Below, piece by piece: positions 5,094-29,635 of a DNA stretch of 64,000 nucleotides (the stretch's first letter is position 1; the number at the start of each line of letters is the position of its first letter). The DNA lies in the NCBI GenBank assembly GCA_938020445.1, contig CALIIC010000093.1, forward strand, positions 1 through 64,000. Reading direction: 5' to 3'. The notes under the pieces are model-generated. The model did no database searches and had not been told where the DNA came from. It saw nothing but the letters and a program-made list of their open reading frames with translations. A program made the position numbers and the translations under genes. Origin of the DNA: an uncultured Flavobacteriaceae bacterium (lineage in GTDB: Bacteria; Bacteroidota; Bacteroidia; Flavobacteriales; Flavobacteriaceae).

Positions 5094-5116
5094 CTGGCAA
5101 AGATAGGCGTTGCTTT

Positions 5117-5158
5117 CAAATACAAATACAAATTCAAACACAAATTCAAGTTCAAATT
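5117..5158 (+). repeat. CAAAYN hexamer array (7 units)
   Basis: Seven consecutive hexamers run here: CAAATA, CAAATA, CAAATT, CAAACA, CAAATT, CAAGTT, CAAATT. The same unit family appears at 7544, 24883, 25036, 27470 and 27588. It lies just upstream of the chosen queE start and explains the spurious N-terminal extension of that ORF. Confidence 0.85.
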
Positions 5159-5220
5159 CGTAAAAGGAACATCCATAAGCGTTCAAACTACATAACCTTA
5201 GGGTTCTTTGTTTTCCTCTT

Positions 5221-5283
5221 TGTTCTCCTTTCTCTTTTCTCTTTCCTCTATTCTATATTCTCCATCCTCCGTTCTCTGTTCTC
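5221..5283 (+). repeat. Degenerate NNTTCTC heptamer array (9 units) in a pyrimidine-rich tract
   Basis: Nine heptamers in exact 7-nt register: TGTTCTC, CTTTCTC, TTTTCTC, TTTCCTC, TATTCTA, TATTCTC, CATCCTC, CGTTCTC, TGTTCTC. They sit in a nearly all-pyrimidine stretch from about 5201 to 5345 in the queE/herA divergent intergenic region. Units differ at the first two bases while the TTCTC core is kept. No protein is encoded convincingly; the ORF track start at 5301 (MFPHLFPSF...) is read from this tract. Confidence 0.75.
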
Positions 5284-5432
5284 TTTAAGCTTTTCATCCT
5301 TTGTTCCCTCATCTTTTCCCTTCCTTTTCTTTCCTTCTCATTTATTGCAAAAGTGGCTACAATTTAACCATGGTGGTTAAAAAGCTGTTTCATTATGCAA
5401 TTTTGCCCTATTTTTATACCAAATTCAAACCA

Positions 5433-6941
5433 ATGAGCAACAAAGACGATTTCTTCGCACATATTGAGAAAGGATACACAACCAAGGGAGATTTTATCAA
5501 TATGGGCGCGGCAATGTTAGATGGTGAAGCAATGACCAATGCATTTGTAAAAATTCCTCTAAAAACCTTGAACCGTCACGGTCTTATTGCCGGTGCGACC
5601 GGTACCGGAAAAACCAAGACCTTGCAGGTTTTGGCGGAAAACCTTTCGAATAAAGGGGTTCCCGTTCTATTAATGGACCTCAAAGGAGATTTGAGCGGAC
5701 TTGCACAACCAAGTCCAGGACACGCAAAAATAGACGAACGTCATGCGAAAATTGGTTTTCCTTTTGAAGCAAGTAATTTCCCAGTTGAAATCTTGTCCTT
5801 ATCAGAACAGGATGGGGTTAAATTAAGGGCGACAGTCTCTGAATTTGGTCCTGTGTTGCTTTCTCGGATTTTGGACCTTAGCGAGACTCAATCGGGTATT
5901 GTTGCCGTAATCTTCAAGTATTGCGATGATAATAAAATGCCGTTGTTAGATTTAAAAGACTTTAAAAAGGTATTGAACTATGCTACCGGGGCCGGAAAAA
6001 AGGAGTTCACGGAAGCCTATGGAAGGATACACACTAGTTCTACCGGAACCATACTTCGTAAGGTCATTGAACTTGAGCAGCAGGGTGCTGAACTCTTTTT
6101 TGGTGAAAAATCCTTTGAGGTGGAAGACCTCACACGAATTGATGAAAAGGGTCGCGGGTTTATTAGTATTTTACGCCTGACAGATATTCAAGATCGGCCG
6201 AAATTGTTCTCAACGTTTATGTTAAGCCTTTTGGCAGAAATATATGCTACTTTTCCAGAACAGGGAGATAGTGACCAGCCAGAACTCATCCTATTCATAG
6301 ATGAGGCCCACCTGATTTTCAATGAAGCTTCCAAAGCACTCTTGGATCAAATAGAAAGTATTGTGAAGCTCATTCGTTCGAAAGGAATTGGGCTGTACTT
6401 TGTGACGCAAAACCCTACGGACGTTCCCAACGCGGTACTTTCGCAACTAGGGCTAAAGGTGCAACATGCCTTGCGTGCGTTTACTGCCAGAGATCGCAAG
6501 GCCATAAAACTCACTGCAGAGAACTATCCCGAATCCGAATTTTATGATACCAAAGAAGTGCTGACAGCCCTTGGTATCGGTGAGGCTTTGATATCGGCGC
6601 TTGATGAAAAAGGCCGCCCAACTCCACTGGCAGCAACGCTATTGCGCGCTCCGATGAGCCGAATGGATGTATTGACCGCTGCAGAGCTAAAAGAAGTCAT
6701 TGGAAATTCAAAATTGGTCAAGAAGTACAACGAGGTCATTGATCGGGAAAGTGCCTACGAGATTTTGAACGAAAAAATAGAGAAAGCCGAAAAAGAGGCG
6801 GAAAAAGAAAAGGAACAACCCGCAGCTCGGAGACGTAGTACAAGTCGAAAAAGTACCCGCATGAATCCTGTAGTAAAAGTGCTTACCAGCGCCACCTTCA
6901 TCAGGGGCGTATTAGGAATACTTAAAAAAGTACTTCGCTAA
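5433..6941 (+). CDS. HerA/VirB4-like ATPase, DUF853 family
   Basis: This is a 502-residue P-loop ATPase. Walker A is GATGTGKTKT near residue 55 and Walker B is ELILFIDEAHLIF near 290, followed by sensor-like VTQNPTDVP. The family (helicase HerA-like, DUF853) is widespread and its cellular role is poorly known; hexameric DNA translocase activity is inferred from HerA relatives. The ATG at 5433 (MSNKDDFF) is chosen over 5301 because the extra N-terminus comes from low-complexity DNA. A charged, possibly coiled-coil stretch (EKIEKAEKEAEKEKEQ) precedes a basic C-terminus. No NurA nuclease gene is nearby. Confidence 0.88.
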   Translation: MSNKDDFFAHIEKGYTTKGDFINMGAAMLDGEAMTNAFVKIPLKTLNRHGLIAGATGTGKTKTLQVLAENLSNKGVPVLLMDLKGDLSGLAQPSPGHAKIDERHAKIGFPFEASNFPVEILSLSEQDGVKLRATVSEFGPVLLSRILDLSETQSGIVAVIFKYCDDNKMPLLDLKDFKKVLNYATGAGKKEFTEAYGRIHTSSTGTILRKVIELEQQGAELFFGEKSFEVEDLTRIDEKGRGFISILRLTDIQDRPKLFSTFMLSLLAEIYATFPEQGDSDQPELILFIDEAHLIFNEASKALLDQIESIVKLIRSKGIGLYFVTQNPTDVPNAVLSQLGLKVQHALRAFTARDRKAIKLTAENYPESEFYDTKEVLTALGIGEALISALDEKGRPTPLAATLLRAPMSRMDVLTAAELKEVIGNSKLVKKYNEVIDRESAYEILNEKIEKAEKEAEKEKEQPAARRRSTSRKSTRMNPVVKVLTSATFIRGVLGILKKVLR

Positions 6942-15896: not shown

Positions 15897-16355
15897 TTAT
15901 ACACCAAACTGCTGTAAATGATGGTCTAAATGTTTTGAAAACAGTGTATTCCATTCGGCTTCGGTCAAGTTCCCGAAGGCATGGGACTCTTTGCCATCAA
16001 AATGGTCTCCTCCCAATTCTTGGGTTTTTTTGATATAAGTGATCAAACGGTTTTTTTCAGCCTCAAAATCACGAGAACCTTCTATGAGGAACATGGGGGC
16101 GGTACGGCTATTTTTCTTATAGGGTTTGGGCCCTACAACCGCACTTTTAGCAAAGAGTTTGATCATGAATTTTTGAAAACCGCCCGGCTTCGGGTGTTTG
16201 TTGTCGTACACAAGTTCATAGGCTACATTTACATGTGCCAACATTTGTGCTACATTCATTTTACCCCATACACTTGGCGTTTCAGAAGTCAAGGAATTCA
16301 CGCGTTCGATTGTTTGCTGTGCCTCTTCGGCATTAAAAAGGTTGCTCCAGTTCAT
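15897..16355 (-). CDS. DUF1569 (DinB/YfiT-like) protein
   Basis: This is a 152-residue protein with the family pattern: WGKMNVAQMLAHVNVAYEL near residue 30-48, a KPGGFQKFMIKLFAKSAVVGPKPY segment, and C-terminal HAFGNLTEAEWNTLFSKHLDHHLQQF. The His residues at AHVN and KHLDHH are placed like the metal ligands of DinB-fold proteins. Members are putative thiol-dependent or stress-linked enzymes, function unknown. Confidence 0.85.
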   Translation of the reverse strand: MNWSNLFNAEEAQQTIERVNSLTSETPSVWGKMNVAQMLAHVNVAYELVYDNKHPKPGGFQKFMIKLFAKSAVVGPKPYKKNSRTAPMFLIEGSRDFEAEKNRLITYIKKTQELGGDHFDGKESHAFGNLTEAEWNTLFSKHLDHHLQQFGV

Positions 16356-16530
16356 GTTGGTCGTTTTTGATGTACCCTAAAATAAGAAAAAAGTACAAAC
16401 GCCACCACCTATTTAAACATCACATGCTAGAAAAAAGCCTTCCTAAATTTTTCATCTTTAAGCCCTTAAGCGGATCTTATACTGCGAGAAAATTAAAAAT
16501 AAGGCATGTCACAAAAGGTACTTTACCGTT

Positions 16531-23698: not shown

Positions 23699-24703
23699 TT
23701 ACTTTTCTTCATCGGTCCACGCGATAAACTTATTAAAAATATCTGCCCATTGACTTATGTTTTCGCCCTTTATTTCTTTCTGATAGCTATGATTACAACC
23801 AAGGCACACTTCAAAAGTTAAATTCTTTTTTCGTTTTTGCATGAATTGTATCGGAAGTAAATACGCTGTCTCAATCGGCGTACTTTCATCTTCGGATGCA
23901 AATTGGGCGTAAATGGGAATAGCCAGTTCCAACAAATATTCTATGGGCGCCCTTTCATAAGAAGACCAACGTTTGTTCGTGTAGCCGAAATCATCTATCT
24001 CCGTTGCATTGGGGTTTTCAACTACTGATCCATACCACTCAAGAATTTCCATATTTCTTTGATGCGCTACAGAATCGCTCACATTCCCTTGCAACGATTC
24101 GATCCTATTAAACAGCGAAAATTCATAAAAATTATTTAAGACATTCCCCGACCAAAAACCCAAATGGGTAATGCTTTTATTTTTCAAGGCCAACGGTGCG
24201 GCAATTGTTGCACCTTCAGAATGCCCGTACACTATAATTTTAGTGGGTTCTTGCAAGTGTTTTTGAATGATATCCTTGATGGCAACATCCACTTGATGAA
24301 CGCGGTAATCCAAATGATTTTTTTCATAAAACGCTTTCGGTACAACAATCTCCGCGTCGTTATAAATACCTGCCATCCCGGGCTTGGGTATAATGGCATA
24401 GGTATAATTCGTATCTAATTGCTTGTAATCATCTCCAAACCATCTTGAAATTACCGTTTTCCCGTTGCTTTTACCATAAGAAAAGATGGGATTGGCATCG
24501 GTACCCTGTATATAAACAACCAAATTTGATGGTTTCTCTTTATAATGTTTCAAATAGTAGGTGATGGTATCATTTTTTTCCACTAACTGTTCCTGTATGA
24601 AACCGTATTTCTCTAAGGCCTCATTAATGGTGGGCGTAGCGGATTGCTGTGCTGTGCCTAAAGCACAAAGGGCGATGAAGAGAAGTGTGAATACTGTTTT
24701 CAT
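23699..24703 (-). CDS. Secreted alpha/beta hydrolase-like protein
   Basis: The 334-residue protein has signal peptide MKTVFTLLFIALCALGTAQ. VVYIQGTDANP, then IIVYGHSEGATIAAPLAL gives the nucleophile elbow GHSEG, and CLGCNHSYQKE supplies a His near the C-terminus, all fitting an alpha/beta hydrolase with weak overall similarity to characterised enzymes. It lies just left of the repeat region at 24781 and is on the same strand as rlmF beyond it. Confidence 0.78.
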   Translation of the reverse strand: MKTVFTLLFIALCALGTAQQSATPTINEALEKYGFIQEQLVEKNDTITYYLKHYKEKPSNLVVYIQGTDANPIFSYGKSNGKTVISRWFGDDYKQLDTNYTYAIIPKPGMAGIYNDAEIVVPKAFYEKNHLDYRVHQVDVAIKDIIQKHLQEPTKIIVYGHSEGATIAAPLALKNKSITHLGFWSGNVLNNFYEFSLFNRIESLQGNVSDSVAHQRNMEILEWYGSVVENPNATEIDDFGYTNKRWSSYERAPIEYLLELAIPIYAQFASEDESTPIETAYLLPIQFMQKRKKNLTFEVCLGCNHSYQKEIKGENISQWADIFNKFIAWTDEEK

Positions 24704-24780
24704 GGATCAAGGTTTTCAATACGACGTTTTTAAGCGAAAAATGTAACAGGACAAACCGTTTGTACAATCGTTTCAGTGAA

Positions 24781-24864
24781 TTAGAGGTTGCAGGTTAGAG
24801 GTTAGAGGTTAGAGGTTAGAGGTTAGAGGTTAGAGGTTAGAGGTTAGAGGTTAGAGGTTAGAGG
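24781..24864 (+). repeat. TTAGAGG heptamer array (12 units)
   Basis: Twelve units in exact 7-nt register; eleven are TTAGAGG and the second is TTGCAGG. It starts about 78 bp upstream of the start codon of the secreted hydrolase. It is the first block of a composite intergenic array that runs to 25182. Confidence 0.95.
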
Positions 24865-24882
24865 AATAAATAAATTCTAATA

Positions 24883-25036
24883 CAAACGTCAAACTCAAAC
24901 TCAAATACACACGTCAAACTCAAACTCAAATACAAACGTCAAACTCAAACACAAGCGTCAAATTCAAAACTGATTACTGTTTACTGCCAACTGCTCACTG
25001 CTCACTGTTCACTGTTAATTGTTCATTGTTCATTGC
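24883..25036 (+). repeat. Composite array, module 1: CAAAYN units then ACTGNNN heptamers
   Basis: From 24883 the units are CAAACGT, CAAACT, CAAACT, CAAATA and repeats of that series to about 24964. From 24969 there are heptamers in register: ACTGATT, ACTGTTT, ACTGCCA, ACTGCTC twice, ACTGTTC, ACTGTTA, ATTGTTC twice and ATTGC. No gene is present. Confidence 0.9.
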
Positions 25037-25182
25037 AATACAAGTTCAAGCGCAAGAGTCAAAAGTGCAAGTTCAAACTCAAATTCAAACGTCAAACTCA
25101 AATACAAACACTAACGTCAAATTCAAAACTGAATACTGAATACTGTTTACTGCCAACTGCCAACTGCCCACTGCTCACTTAG
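25036..25182 (+). repeat. Composite array, module 2: CAANNN units then ACTGNNN heptamers
   Basis: The same order is repeated: CAAGTT, CAAGCG, CAAACT, CAAATT, CAAACGT, CAAACT and so on, then ACTGAAT twice, ACTGTTT, ACTGCCA twice, ACTGCCC, ACTGCTC and a final ACTTAG (25177-25182). The last block ends exactly three bases before the stop codon of rlmF (25186-25188). Confidence 0.9.
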
Positions 25183-25185
25183 CCC

Positions 25186-26028
25186 TTACCGAAATGTCCA
25201 AGCAATAAAACGGCTTTTTTTATTTCCCTGTCCCATATCAACTACTTTCACCTCAGCGGGGTTTGTTTTATGTATGGAGCGTTTTATGGTCTTAAGGTGG
25301 TCTTTTTGTGAAACCAAAGCCGTAAACCAATGTACTTGTTCTTTGAAGTGAACACTTTCTTGCACCATTTTTTTCACAAAGCGTTCTTCCCCTCCCCTAT
25401 ACCATAATTCGTTCGCATTACCACCAAAGTTTTGGAGTGTCTTTTCTTGTAATCCAAGGTTTTTGACCTTGCGCTGGTTGCTACGCTGTGCTTCTTTTGC
25501 ACTCTTAAAGAAAGGGGGGTTACAAACAACCACATCGAATACATCTTCAGGTCTTATGATATGCTCAAAAATCGTATTCTTGAATTTTTGATGCCTCAGT
25601 GTTATACTTTTCAGGTTTGGGTTTGCATCAACAATGCTTTGTGCATGCCTTAGCGAAGCTACATCTGTTTCGCTAGCGGTACAATTCCAATTAAAATGGC
25701 ATGTACCCAAAATAGGATAGATCAGGTTCGCGCCGGTACCAATATCCAATAAATTTATGGATGCTTTCAACAATAAATCAGCCACATGTAGCAGGTAATC
25801 CAAACGACCTGGAATGGGCGGACAAAGATTGTTTTCAGGAATATCCCATTCAATCCTGTACCGTTCTTTTAGCAAGGCAGCGTTTAAGGCCTTTACCGCT
25901 TTTTGGTTTCCGAATTTAATTGTTTTAGTACCATAGTCGTTTACGAAAACATGGGTTCCCAAGGTATCGCTATACTGAACGAGGGTATCAAAATCGTATT
26001 CTGAAATAAAAGGGTTTTTAGGATGCAA
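25186..26028 (-). CDS. rlmF: 23S rRNA (adenine-1618 N6)-methyltransferase
   Basis: RlmF methylates A1618 of 23S rRNA. The 280-residue protein starts LHPKNPF, like the LHPRN start region of E. coli RlmF, and has a SAM site (LLDIGTGANLIYPIL), the N6-adenine catalytic motif NPPF in VVCNPPFFKS, and EELWYRGGEERFV-type C-terminal residues (GGNANELWYRGGEERF). The start is a TTG at 26028; the upstream in-frame codon is a stop three codons away, so no earlier ATG is possible. A repeat array abuts its 3' end. Confidence 0.93.
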   Translation of the reverse strand: MHPKNPFISEYDFDTLVQYSDTLGTHVFVNDYGTKTIKFGNQKAVKALNAALLKERYRIEWDIPENNLCPPIPGRLDYLLHVADLLLKASINLLDIGTGANLIYPILGTCHFNWNCTASETDVASLRHAQSIVDANPNLKSITLRHQKFKNTIFEHIIRPEDVFDVVVCNPPFFKSAKEAQRSNQRKVKNLGLQEKTLQNFGGNANELWYRGGEERFVKKMVQESVHFKEQVHWFTALVSQKDHLKTIKRSIHKTNPAEVKVVDMGQGNKKSRFIAWTFR

Positions 26029-26100
26029 GGAGGGTCATATCAACTTTGTGAAACAAAAATACAAAAACCAATGTACTTCGTTTTAAAAGTACAACGGAGT

Positions 26101-26733
26101 TCACTTCACTTTAGCAAAGGCCATTTTTACCGCAAGACCGGTTAAAACAGAGGCCATAAACCATTTTTGAATGCGCAACCATATTGGTTTTTTCACAAAC
26201 CAACCGGCCATCTTTGCAGCCGAGATCACAATTAAAAAATTCACGGCAAAACTAATAATGATCTGTACCACCCCCAATTGAAAACTTTGTCCTAAAATTG
26301 ACCCATATTCAGGTTTGATAAACTGAGGGAAAAAAGACAGATAGAACACTGCCATCTTTGGATTCAAAACGTTTGTCAGCAAACCAATATGAAACAATTT
26401 TAAAGGGGTGTCTTTCTTCATACTTTTACCTGCATCGAACAACTGTTTTTTAGAAACAACAGTTGTATAGGCCAAATACAGCAGATACCCTACTCCTAGA
26501 AATTTGACCACCACAAAGGCATAGGGTACTGCAAAAAAGATGGCGGTTAGACCAAATGAAACCATTAGGATATGGAACAAAAACCCGCAAATAATACCAA
26601 AGAGCGAAATAATGCCTGCCCGCTTTCCTTGGGAAAGAGACCTTGAAATCAAATAAATCATATTAGGTCCCGGAGAAAGCACCATGATCAAGGAGGCGAG
26701 TGCAAAAAGCAACAAATCGTTTAAAGGAATCAT
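26101..26733 (-). CDS. LysE-family amino-acid/small-molecule exporter
   Basis: This 210-residue membrane protein has the LysE opening (LLLFALASLIMVLSPGPNMIYLISRSL), G-rich first helices (GIISLFGIICGFLFHILMVSFGLTAIF), and NPKMAVFYLSFFPQFI, all typical of the RhtB/LysE family. Six hydrophobic segments can be counted. Substrate is unknown. Neighbouring genes offer no functional link. Confidence 0.93.
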   Translation of the reverse strand: MIPLNDLLLFALASLIMVLSPGPNMIYLISRSLSQGKRAGIISLFGIICGFLFHILMVSFGLTAIFFAVPYAFVVVKFLGVGYLLYLAYTTVVSKKQLFDAGKSMKKDTPLKLFHIGLLTNVLNPKMAVFYLSFFPQFIKPEYGSILGQSFQLGVVQIIISFAVNFLIVISAAKMAGWFVKKPIWLRIQKWFMASVLTGLAVKMAFAKVK

Positions 26734-26785
26734 AGAAAGAACATTTCGTTTGCTACAAAATTAAGGGAATTAACCCTACAGTACC

Positions 26786-27409
26786 TTATTTCTTTTCTTC
26801 AGCAAGTGCATTCTCTACCAAGAAAATGGTATACTTATAGGTTAGCTCCGAAGCTTTCTTTCGAAGGCGAAAGTAACTATACATTGAAAATGCCCCCAAG
26901 GCCATGCATGGAAATAACAGATACCAGGAAGGGTTCATCCCTCCTTCGCGAGGAATCAAAAACAAAATCGCCAAGAAGACCGAAATGACCACTAGGCTTC
27001 GAAAGAACTTTGAATTGGCCATTTGTAAATTGATTTGCCCTATAATGCTTGCCTCACTTTGAATTACCTTATAGGTCGCCCAATCTAGGTCGCCCAGCGA
27101 ACTCGCCAGACGTTGTTGGCGCATCTCTTTAATCCGTTCTAAGAATGGGCGGTCCTGTTTGTCTATCCACCGGTCATAGAAAGGCTTGTCCATCAAAGAC
27201 CCGATTTCCCGAATAAGGTGCCCAAATAAAAAGGCATATAGCAACAACACGGCCATTGCATAATTCCCTTCCGGATCATCAATACCAAAAACAGCCGACA
27301 CCTTAGACTTGAATTGAATATACAGCACGACGGATAGAATACCACCCGGAAGCAAAATCGAAAAGAAATCAACAATACCGATAAAGAAATTACTGGGTTT
27401 AAAATCCAT
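26786..27409 (-). CDS. Conserved membrane protein of unknown function
   Basis: The 207-residue protein has two hydrophobic N-terminal spans (FFSILLPGGILSVVLYI, then YAMAVLLLYAFLFGHLIREIG), a charged central stretch (WIDKQDRPFLERIKEMRQQRL), and two close spans near the C-terminus (LVVISVFLAILFLIP, WYLLFPCMALGAFSMYSYF). No family recognised. It is just left of the GTTAGAT array, whose first unit starts 12 bp upstream of the start codon. Confidence 0.75.
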   Translation of the reverse strand: MDFKPSNFFIGIVDFFSILLPGGILSVVLYIQFKSKVSAVFGIDDPEGNYAMAVLLLYAFLFGHLIREIGSLMDKPFYDRWIDKQDRPFLERIKEMRQQRLASSLGDLDWATYKVIQSEASIIGQINLQMANSKFFRSLVVISVFLAILFLIPREGGMNPSWYLLFPCMALGAFSMYSYFRLRKKASELTYKYTIFLVENALAEEKK

Positions 27410-27420
27410 CTTAGGTTGGT

Positions 27421-27462
27421 GTTAGATGTTAGATGTTAGATGTTAGATGTTAGATGTTAGAT
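27421..27462 (+). repeat. GTTAGAT heptamer array (6 units)
   Basis: Six perfect units of GTTAGAT (27421-27462). This is a one-base variant of the TTAGAGG unit at 24781 read in another phase (TTAGATG versus TTAGAGG). It is placed upstream of a minus-strand gene, as the first array is. Confidence 0.95.
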
Positions 27463-27469
27463 GAAAAAA

Positions 27470-27562
27470 CAAATTCAAGAGCAAGTGTCAAGCTCAAACT
27501 CAAAAAACTGCTTACCGTTTACTGTTCATTGTTAATTGCTAATTGTTCATTGCTACTTGTCT
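27470..27562 (+). repeat. Composite array: CAANNN units then ACTGNNN/ATTGNNN heptamers
   Basis: CAAATT, CAAGAG, CAAGTGT, CAAGCT, CAAACT, then in register ACTGCTT, ACCGTTT, ACTGTTC, ATTGTTA, ATTGCTA, ATTGTTC, ATTGCTA and CTTGTCT. Same order of blocks as at 24781-25036. Confidence 0.88.
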
Positions 27563-27587
27563 AAAGAATAAATGAAAAAAGTAAATT

Positions 27588-27650
27588 CAAACACAAACGT
27601 CAAATTCAAACACATAATTTTTCACTGTTCACTGTTCACTGATTACTACC
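27588..27650 (+). repeat. Short composite array: CAAAYN then ACTGNNN
   Basis: CAAACA, CAAACGT, CAAATT, CAAACA, then a CATAATTTTTC spacer, then ACTGTTC twice, ACTGATT and ACTACC. The spacer followed by ACTG heptamers recurs at about 27806, on the far side of the palindromic element. Confidence 0.85.
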
Positions 27651-27715
27651 TTGTCAGGTCGAGTCGAGATCTACTTGGCATGTTCCTAGGCTTTCGACTG
27701 CGCTCAAGGTGACAA
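27651..27715. repeat. REP-like imperfect palindromic element
   Basis: The element begins TTGTCAGGTCGAG and ends CTCAAGGTGACAA, an imperfect inverted repeat of about 65 bp. The right arm, CTTTCGACTGCGCTCAAGG, resembles a palindromic repeat widely dispersed in flavobacterial genomes (recalled, not checked). It lies within the array-rich intergenic region. Confidence 0.6.
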
Positions 27716-27816
27716 TGCGAAAAACAAGAAAGACCGTCACGTGTAAGGAACAAAGACAAAGGGCCGTGATACTGAAAGACAAAATATTGAATTAAAAATT
27801 AAATCCATAATTTTTC

Positions 27817-27900
27817 ACTGGTCACTGTTCACTGTTCACTGTTAATTGTTAATTGTTCATTGCTAATTGTTCACTGTTAACTGCCCATTGTAACCTGTCT
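27817..27900 (+). repeat. ACTGNNN heptamer array (12 units) overlapping a stop codon
   Basis: Twelve heptamers in unbroken register: ACTGGTC, ACTGTTC twice, ACTGTTA, ATTGTTA, ATTGTTC, ATTGCTA, ATTGTTC, ACTGTTA, ACTGCCC, ATTGTAA and CCTGTCT. The last unit overlaps the first two bases (on this strand) of the stop codon of the lipoprotein esterase gene. Confidence 0.92.
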
Positions 27901-29635
27901 ACCGATAGCGCCAACTCGTTAAATCAGCGTCTTTGGGAGCGCTTTCAGCAATGCGTTTCATGATTTTGGGTACGTACATGCGATTATAGCGTAAACGGCT
28001 GATGGCATTGGGTTGATTAGGATCGCCGTTCCAACAGTGTTCGGCCTGGTCACCATAGAGCACTTCCCCGTCATAATAGGGCTCTGAAGTATTTTCAAGA
28101 AAATCTTCCATCAAATACACCGCATTGTTCAGGTAATAATTATCCATATCACCACAATAAATATGGATCTTCCCTTTAAGGTGCTCCCCTAGCTTGTCCC
28201 AATCGCGTTCCAGAATATGGCGTAGGTCGTAGTTCTCTTTCCAATACTCGGCCACTTTATGGTCAATAGCACCCGTTTTCTTGTCCCAAATACGCACCGG
28301 GTAACCATCGGCTCCTTGCGGGGAATAAGTAGCTTCCCAAATATCCCATTGCTGTCCCGAACGGCTCTTATCGCCCAATACAAGTTCCAAATGATTTCCT
28401 TGACGCAGCGTCGATTGTATTTGTCCTAAATGATCCCGATGGCTTGGCACTTCCAATTGTTTGTGATCACTGGCATAGTAATAGGCGTTTTCATCCTCAT
28501 AAATATTCGTCAAACAATAGGCCCGAAAATCGATCGGATCGGGGCAGGCAGCAAAACAACCGTTGTATTCCTCAGGATATTTCACTTGAACCGCAAGTGC
28601 CTCCCACCCGCCGGTAGACCCCCCGTATAAAAAGCGCGACCAGCCTTCTCCCATACCCCTAAATTCTTTTTCGATATGCGGAATAAGCTCATAGGTAATT
28701 GCATCGCCATAGGGCCCTTGACTGGCAGAATTCACCGCATAGGAATCATCGTAATAGGGAGTCGGATGTTGGATCTCGATAATTAAAAAACGTGGGAATT
28801 CAGGTTCGTTCCAACGCTTATAAAAATCATAGGCCTCCTGTTGTTGGATGATATTATACCCTTCCAACTGAAAGCGTTCGGAATATTCCGGCTTTAGGTT
28901 GGGATCCGGTGGCGTGGTGCGAAAACCACCAAAGTCTGCCGGAAAATGCCCTTGAAATACCATAAGTGGGTATTTGGCTTCTGGGTGTTCTTCAAAACCT
29001 TTGGGCAATAGCACATGGGCTCCTAAATACATATCCCGGCCCCAAAACTCAGATAGCTTTTCAGATTTGATCTTAATGTGTTTGATCCATTCGGTATCGG
29101 CCGGTTCGGGAAGCGGAGGAATCACCTGATCCATGGTCACGGTCGCAGCCTCGATTCCCGTTTCGGTCACCGTCATCTGAAATGGTTTACTGAACAGATT
29201 CCCTGGAGAACGATTCCATTGCTGCCCTTCACCATTGTCCATCGGCAGCTTGACCGTCTGCCCTGTTGCGAGCTGAAATGTTTCATACACGTGCAATAAG
29301 GCCTGCACTTGATACACTCCCGGTGGCACTTCTGACAGACTGGGATAGGGATATCCAAAAATTTCCGAATCAAAGGTTTGTAGTTCACCTGCCTTCATTC
29401 CTTCTACATTCATCCCGTAAATCAATTGGGTATGGAGGCCATCGCTTATTTGAAAACGGGGTTCTTTTTCAGTATCGGTAGAAAGCATTAACAACAAGCG
29501 ACCATCCACGGGATTGCTACTAACAGAATCTGAAAAAGTGACCGAAATCGTAAAGTTCGACGCTTCTTCGGTTGCGGGCTGGCATCCCACTAGGAAAATT
29601 AGCGCTATTATTAAAAATGAAAAAAGTGATTTCAT
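27899..29635 (-). CDS. Lipoprotein esterase-like alpha/beta hydrolase
   Basis: The 578-residue protein has a lipoprotein signal (MKSLFSFLIIALIFLVGCQ). An N-terminal beta-sandwich-like region (to about 200) precedes an esterase-type domain with YPLMVFQGHFPADFGGF and nucleophile elbow YGGSTGGWEA, then ACPDPIDFRAY and AEHCWNGD, which supplies a His. It resembles large Bacteroidetes esterase-D-like proteins but the substrate is unknown. An ACTG heptamer array runs up to its stop codon. Confidence 0.82.
   Translation of the reverse strand: MKSLFSFLIIALIFLVGCQPATEEASNFTISVTFSDSVSSNPVDGRLLLMLSTDTEKEPRFQISDGLHTQLIYGMNVEGMKAGELQTFDSEIFGYPYPSLSEVPPGVYQVQALLHVYETFQLATGQTVKLPMDNGEGQQWNRSPGNLFSKPFQMTVTETGIEAATVTMDQVIPPLPEPADTEWIKHIKIKSEKLSEFWGRDMYLGAHVLLPKGFEEHPEAKYPLMVFQGHFPADFGGFRTTPPDPNLKPEYSERFQLEGYNIIQQQEAYDFYKRWNEPEFPRFLIIEIQHPTPYYDDSYAVNSASQGPYGDAITYELIPHIEKEFRGMGEGWSRFLYGGSTGGWEALAVQVKYPEEYNGCFAACPDPIDFRAYCLTNIYEDENAYYYASDHKQLEVPSHRDHLGQIQSTLRQGNHLELVLGDKSRSGQQWDIWEATYSPQGADGYPVRIWDKKTGAIDHKVAEYWKENYDLRHILERDWDKLGEHLKGKIHIYCGDMDNYYLNNAVYLMEDFLENTSEPYYDGEVLYGDQAEHCWNGDPNQPNAISRLRYNRMYVPKIMKRIAESAPKDADLTSWRYR

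Follow-up and report, generated by a model that had tools for sequence, protein, structure and literature searches.

The window analysed here is a stretch of 64,000 nucleotides from contig CALIIC010000093.1 of an uncultured Flavobacteriaceae bacterium. The genome (G000 below) comprises 4.66 Mb in 207 contigs and is 82% complete, and its nearest named relatives, judged by the RlmF-like protein, are Arenibacter species with 64–67% identity. Between the start of a membrane-protein gene (27409) and the stop of an esterase gene (27899), both on the minus strand, lies a non-coding gap, 27421–27898, in which three types of repeat follow each other in a fixed order. This array is called the second one, since another (24704–25185) lies near the RlmF-like gene. 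The features are the following, in window coordinates.

24794–24863, plus strand: H1 block of the first array, GTTAGAG in ten perfect copies within a longer degenerate stretch (24781–24867)
24864–24968, plus strand: linker and CAANNN hexads of the first array
24969–25038, plus strand: H3 heptads of the first array, with ACTG in seven units and ATTG in the three that follow
25039–25127, plus strand: second CAANNN set of the first array
25128–25180, plus strand: another H3 set of the first array, made of seven ACTG units and stopping 5 bases short of the RlmF-like gene's stop codon
26101–27409, minus strand: LysE translocator and membrane-protein genes, between the RlmF-like gene and the esterase gene
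27421–27462, plus strand: H1 block of the second array, (GTTAGAT)6
27463–27505, plus strand: A-rich linker and CAANNN hexads, a member of the conserved core A6-8-TAAATTCAAAYACAAATGTCAAAYTCAAA
27507–27555, plus strand: H3 block, seven heptads (ACTGCTT, ACCGTTT, ACTGTTC, ATTGTTA, ATTGCTA, ATTGTTC, ATTGCTA)
27574–27614, plus strand: second, shorter linker and CAANNN set
27624–27644, plus strand: second ACTGNNN set, three heptads (ACTGTTC, ACTGTTC, ACTGATT)
27652–27714, no strand: imperfect REP-like palindrome, TGTCAGGTCGAG...TCGACTGCGCTCAAGGTGACA
27817–27900, plus strand: final H3 block, twelve heptads

Layout of the two arrays

The second array is confirmed to be real, and none of its structure is expected by chance: the pattern AYTGNNN repeated four times has 21 matches in the window and none in 100 dinucleotide shuffles. 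A sequence-only reading had described the gap as (GTTAGAT)6, CAANNN, ACTGNNN, a second CAA/ACTG set, a palindromic element and final heptads, and this layout is confirmed by our own reading together with TRF, which gives the H1 block a period of 7, 6.3 copies and a match of 100%. At one end, the H1 block lies next to 27409, where the membrane-protein gene on the minus strand has its start codon. At the other, the last unit does overlap the esterase stop codon, as had been claimed: the twelfth heptad is a degenerate CCTGTCT at 27894–27900, and the stop occupies 27899–27901 on the complement. The final block had been called a 12-unit ACTGNNN block; it has twelve heptads, but only six carry ACTG, while five carry ATTG and one CCTG.

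The palindromic element is present as well, but it is imperfect, and as single-stranded DNA the segment 27652–27714 folds no more strongly than its shuffles (z −0.08), so that a strong hairpin is rejected. The palindrome arm TCGACTGCGCTCAA is common to several genera, and REP-like palindromes with the arms TTGAGCGCAGTCGA/TCGACTGCGCTCAA are seen at 5690–5770 of locus L373, at 2450–2472 of locus L116 and at 27652–27714 of the window.

The block order at 24781 had been equated with that at 27421. This is correct for the shared heptamer, CAA, ACTG, CAA and ACTG blocks, but the palindrome and the last block are found only in the second array.

A family of composite elements

The arrangement is not confined to these two gaps. 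In the whole genome, ACTGNNN repeated four times has 32 matches, compared to none for the reversed pattern. Pattern searches place heptads, hexads and TTAGATG/TTAGAGG blocks at many further sites, where reading confirms the composite, and the same order and orientation is found at 24781 and in about ten other gene gaps of the genome. The element consists of three modules, namely H1 (GAKGTTA type), a core of ca 40 bases made up of the A-rich linker and CAANNN, and H3, the degenerate AYTGNNN heptads. In some cases the sets occur twice or are attached to a REP-like palindrome. Between H1 and H3, the core A6-8-TAAATTCAAAYACAAATGTCAAAYTCAAA has about ten invariant positions in 14 loci of three species.

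According to a block parser run on the fetched loci, H1 precedes the core/CAA block in ten out of ten loci, and 36 of 39 adjacent blocks are co-oriented. The step from CAA to ACTG is counted 20 times and that from ACTG to CAA 6 times, the latter where sets stand in tandem, as expected. The parsed loci were chosen by pattern, and these counts describe the order within arrays, not abundance. Relative to the genes, the orientation of the arrays is mixed, and the idea that it follows transcription was dropped. H1 lies directly by the start codon of the SDR gene, the VWA gene and the membrane-protein gene, and by a stop codon at C27, C67 and C199.

History in the congeners

Nine congeners were compared, and the genes of the window align in order with those of G004, G008, G003 and G002. 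In a tree from three proteins, G000, G004 and G008 form one clade with a support of 0.994. The gap that holds the first array (est24k|rlmF) contains in G008 two copies of TTAGAGG, an A-rich linker, CAA, ACTGTTC, CAA and ACTGTTC/ATTG, that is, the same order, with about two copies of the heptamer compared to ten in G000; in G004 it holds decayed CAA sequence only. At the 3' end of the esterase gene, G008 has a short array running from CAA to ACTGTTC, ACTGTTA and ATTGCCC. This is the orthologue of the second array without its GTTAGAT block, and the terminal units TTC, TTA and CCC are common to both. G004 retains a remnant of CAA hexads at this place.

Other loci show the same pattern of shared sites and changing copy numbers. 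Upstream of the SDR gene, CATCTAA is present 9 times in G000, 10 times in G004 and once in G008, and upstream of the VWA/CoxE gene these three genomes have 8, 4 and 9 copies, in this order. Degenerate heptads occupy the SDR locus in G002 and G003, the VWA locus is empty in G005 and G006 (an intergenic gap of ca 30 bases), and the more distant congeners have short gaps without arrays. The unit variant tracks the locus, with CATCTAA at SDR and VWA in three species and CCTCTAA at rlmF in two, which speaks against recent copying between loci. Since arrays, partly decayed in G004, occupy the same gaps in the G000/G004/G008 clade, they were present at these sites in the clade ancestor, and copy numbers changed later. 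The heptamer type is mostly locus-specific, and the best reading is that the family has been inherited vertically.

It had also been proposed that the two arrays evolved separately from a common type. This is supported, as the order of H1, core/CAA and ACTG recurs at many loci and each array has its own orthologue in G008. The proposal was to be abandoned if the two regions shared no block order or arose only from a single recent duplication; in fact the arrays do share their block order, and, each having a counterpart in the same gap of a sister species, they do not come from one such duplication.

The LysE and membrane-protein genes have a different distribution. Neither has an orthologue in the syntenic regions of the congeners, and the membrane protein, which has no Pfam match, is missing from each of the nine congeners compared (26101–27409 region of the window). 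In G004 and G008, the place of this pair between RlmF and the esterase is taken by other genes. A recombination of this cassette between the two arrays was considered and rejected. The first array is located on the far side of RlmF, within a gene pair that is conserved, so that more than the inserted genes is enclosed by the two arrays.

Some further arrays were noted in these comparisons. In another gene gap of the window (5115–5296), CAAANN hexads precede pyrimidine heptads of the TTCTCTN type, and the orthologous gaps contain far longer CAANNN arrays in G004 (555398–555811) and G008 (16113–16393). On the other side of the esterase gene, G003 carries tandem composite units of ca 1 kb, with CAA hexads, GA-rich heptads and ACTG heptads (C3, around 749800–751340, locus L128); such units were not seen there in G000, G004 and G002. 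Upstream of the VWA gene, where the sister species carry CATCTAA, G009 has unrelated (CAAAACA)n heptamers (L409).

The ACTG core in other genera

A periodicity scan without an assumed motif, in which five units with at least four conserved columns were required, was applied to 438 kb of window and syntenic congener DNA. It gives a signal at periods 6 and 7 and at the multiple 12, and none at periods 4, 5 and 8–11. In 400 kb of G022, which belongs to another genus, the period-7 arrays are all degenerate, none being perfect over five units, and most have the ACTG core. This core is also found in the period-7 arrays of G020 and G029, and no array was detected in the 140 kb scanned of G027. The favoured triplets are TTC, TTT and CTC in G000, TTC, CTA and CCC in G020, and AAG, CCA and CCT in G022, as counted in matches drawn with the AYTG pattern itself.

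ACTGNNN repeated four times occurs in 21 of 60 relatives, with none or almost none in the same-genus genomes G002, G006, G007 and G009. Across the phylum, five repeats occur in 79 of 296 genomes. Matches to the reversed control are also common in the distant classes, however, and the dominance of ACTG thus belongs to the family and its near relatives, not to the phylum. In viral contigs, the heptad pattern and the reversed control are both matched, with no contrast among the matches listed. Five distant Bacteroidota (G170, G178, G193, G236 and G348) are rich in the reversed pattern GTCANNN, and such lineages may have fixed-core heptads of their own.

At 16063–16198 and 17251–17395 of L104 in G022, a CAGTNNN array directly faces an ACTGNNN array, forming inverted heptad pairs between genes; such neighbours in opposite orientation speak against a strict replication-strand bias. 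Other degenerate heptad words, GAATNNN, CAAGANN and GAACCNN, were seen at L106 and L109 (G022) and at L127–L128 (G003).

Explanations

We consider it probable that the arrays belong to a dispersed, modular family of non-coding intergenic repeats, similar to BOX and STAR, whose blocks grow and shrink by slippage. Order, orientation, core, the sites shared by sister species and the copy-number differences are all directly observed. The species comparison suggests that the heptamer and hexamer blocks would change length by slipped-strand mispairing in replication, in registers of 7 and 6 bases, each locus keeping its inherited unit variant. The arrays would then remain in place as spacers with little folding until point mutations erode them. 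From time to time, copies would reach other gaps, most likely by duplication or by ectopic recombination between copies. A function, for example translation tuning where H1 adjoins a start codon, may exist, but it would be secondary and locus-specific.

An RNA role is rejected: there is no Rfam match at E≤1 in 24400–28200 of the window, and the folding of both window arrays as RNA is far weaker than that of shuffles (z +4.9 for each), that of the SDR array a little weaker (z +1.4). A transposon is likewise rejected, as no inverted repeats of at least 12 bases occur in the four arrays tested and no Y1 (RAYT) transposase (PF01797) is matched in the window genome, which is 82% complete. These two results also weigh against the wider idea of a miniature transposable or REP/BIME-type element moved by a transposase. 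The dispersed intergenic copies with their fixed internal order and the associated REP-like palindrome would suit such an element, but no clean insertion boundary is seen at empty sites, and we regard this explanation as highly improbable. In the comparison for target-site duplications, the intergenic sequence of the empty sites could not be aligned. That the arrays are artefacts of a metagenome-derived assembly is scarcely credible; the 207 contigs and the incomplete genome invite the suspicion, but orthologous arrays are present in the congener G004, which is 99% complete, and in the independent assembly G008.

Translation tuning could also be the main role of the arrays, with a G-free, weakly folded leader, (CATCTAA)n on the sense strand just ahead of a start codon, setting the level of translation and the copy number changing it. 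The position of H1 at the SDR, VWA and membrane-protein start codons is consistent with this, as is the fact that adenines upstream and a low degree of structure tune initiation in Flavobacterium johnsoniae (PMC6847099), and that TAACTGA heptamers are located near start codons in Beggiatoaceae (PMC4679880). However, H1 stands at a stop codon in C27, C67 and C199, the bulk of each array is far from a start codon, and the orientation is mixed, and we therefore regard this role as very unlikely.

The puzzle that the slippage explanation leaves over is the constancy of ACTG beside free triplets in several genera. Slippage with random mutation would blur all seven columns alike, and the occurrence of one core in several genera thus suggests that something constrains H3. 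For this reason, a binding factor or a writing enzyme is kept as a minority reading. The ACTGNNN arrays, and those of CAANNN, might be bound by a protein that recognises, in DNA or RNA, the four constant bases at a spacing of 7, selection keeping the core while the other three bases drift. The variable triplets around ACTG in the scans of G022, G020, G029 and the window genus argue for this, as do the ACTG matches far above the reversed control in the sampled family members and the terminal units kept between G000 and G008. On the other hand, the arrays have no consistent orientation with respect to the genes, the same sites are without arrays in many close relatives, and the same-genus genomes G002, G006, G007 and G009 have none or almost none, which indicates that the sites are not essential; we know of no candidate protein. 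Such binding arrays are, in our judgement, unlikely. The stronger claim, that the heptads are not a by-product of slippage but a 7-base code shared by the intergenic DNA of the Flavobacteriaceae and upheld by a dedicated factor (an enzyme that writes heptads, or a protein that recognises ACTG at 7-base intervals), seems to us decidedly unlikely.

Relation to known repeats

Modular intergenic repeats such as BOX and STAR are known in Firmicutes; in the literature searched we found none described for the Flavobacteriaceae, and searching by repeat sequence returned only primers and unrelated papers. Pneumococcal BOX elements have the form boxA-boxB(n)-boxC, with modules of ca 50 nt and stem-loops (PMC3049150). 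The layout is alike, in that composites are scattered over intergenic sites, their modules follow a fixed order, and one tandem module varies in copy number (here H1, with 1–10 copies between orthologues), but here the units have 6–7 nt, two blocks can expand, and folding is weaker than in shuffles, without the stem-loops of BOX. The staphylococcal STAR repeats are interspersed intergenic direct repeats; their loci vary from species to species, become longer or shorter, and retain a sequence specific to the locus (PMC3532100). Compared by layout, they share the interspersed intergenic position, the size changes and the locus-specific sequence, but the present loci are shared as orthologues by sister species, and they have other unit types in another order. 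The BrickBuilt minisatellite-MITE of Porphyromonas gingivalis (PMC4596501) likewise places tandem repeats between constant end modules in intergenic DNA of a Bacteroidetes species, but it has 23-nt units and small inverted-repeat ends, and no inverted repeats of at least 12 bases were found here in the arrays tested. In layout, the element is thus similar to BOX and STAR; it is not a BOX element, and we do not class it as a STAR or a MITE either.

By unit length, it belongs with the heptamer simple repeats and the TAACTGA repeats. The latter, known from Beggiatoaceae, Cyanobacteria and some Bacteroidetes, consist of one exact heptamer, mostly by start codons, and the cases in Gramella, Aequorivita and Elizabethkingia lie among other heptamers (PMC4679880). 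They too form intergenic heptamer arrays, and TAACTGA, read as ACTGATA, is an ACTGNNN unit; what differs here is the fixed core with a variable triplet and the conserved order of three blocks. The exact unit is present in some other flavobacteria and in neither window array. The long heptanucleotide simple sequence repeats of Mrazek (2007), as summarised in PMC4679880, are near-perfect, with slippage as the proposed origin. Going by that summary, they share with the present arrays the dominant period 7, tandem 7-nt units beyond chance and the proposed slippage; of the present blocks, H1 is near-perfect, and H3 is degenerate at set positions with a constant core.

The arrays are a modular, stretchable spacer family, not a one-off, and their history is unusually clear, with the same gene gaps and order, mostly locus-specific units, copy-number changes and empty sites. 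The constant ACTG core beside variable triplets could help to decide whether bacterial heptamers result from slippage by itself or from slippage combined with selection, a question that dates from the first notice of heptamer over-representation. In practical terms, arrays of this kind interrupt contigs, give rise to false ORFs and make strains harder to compare.
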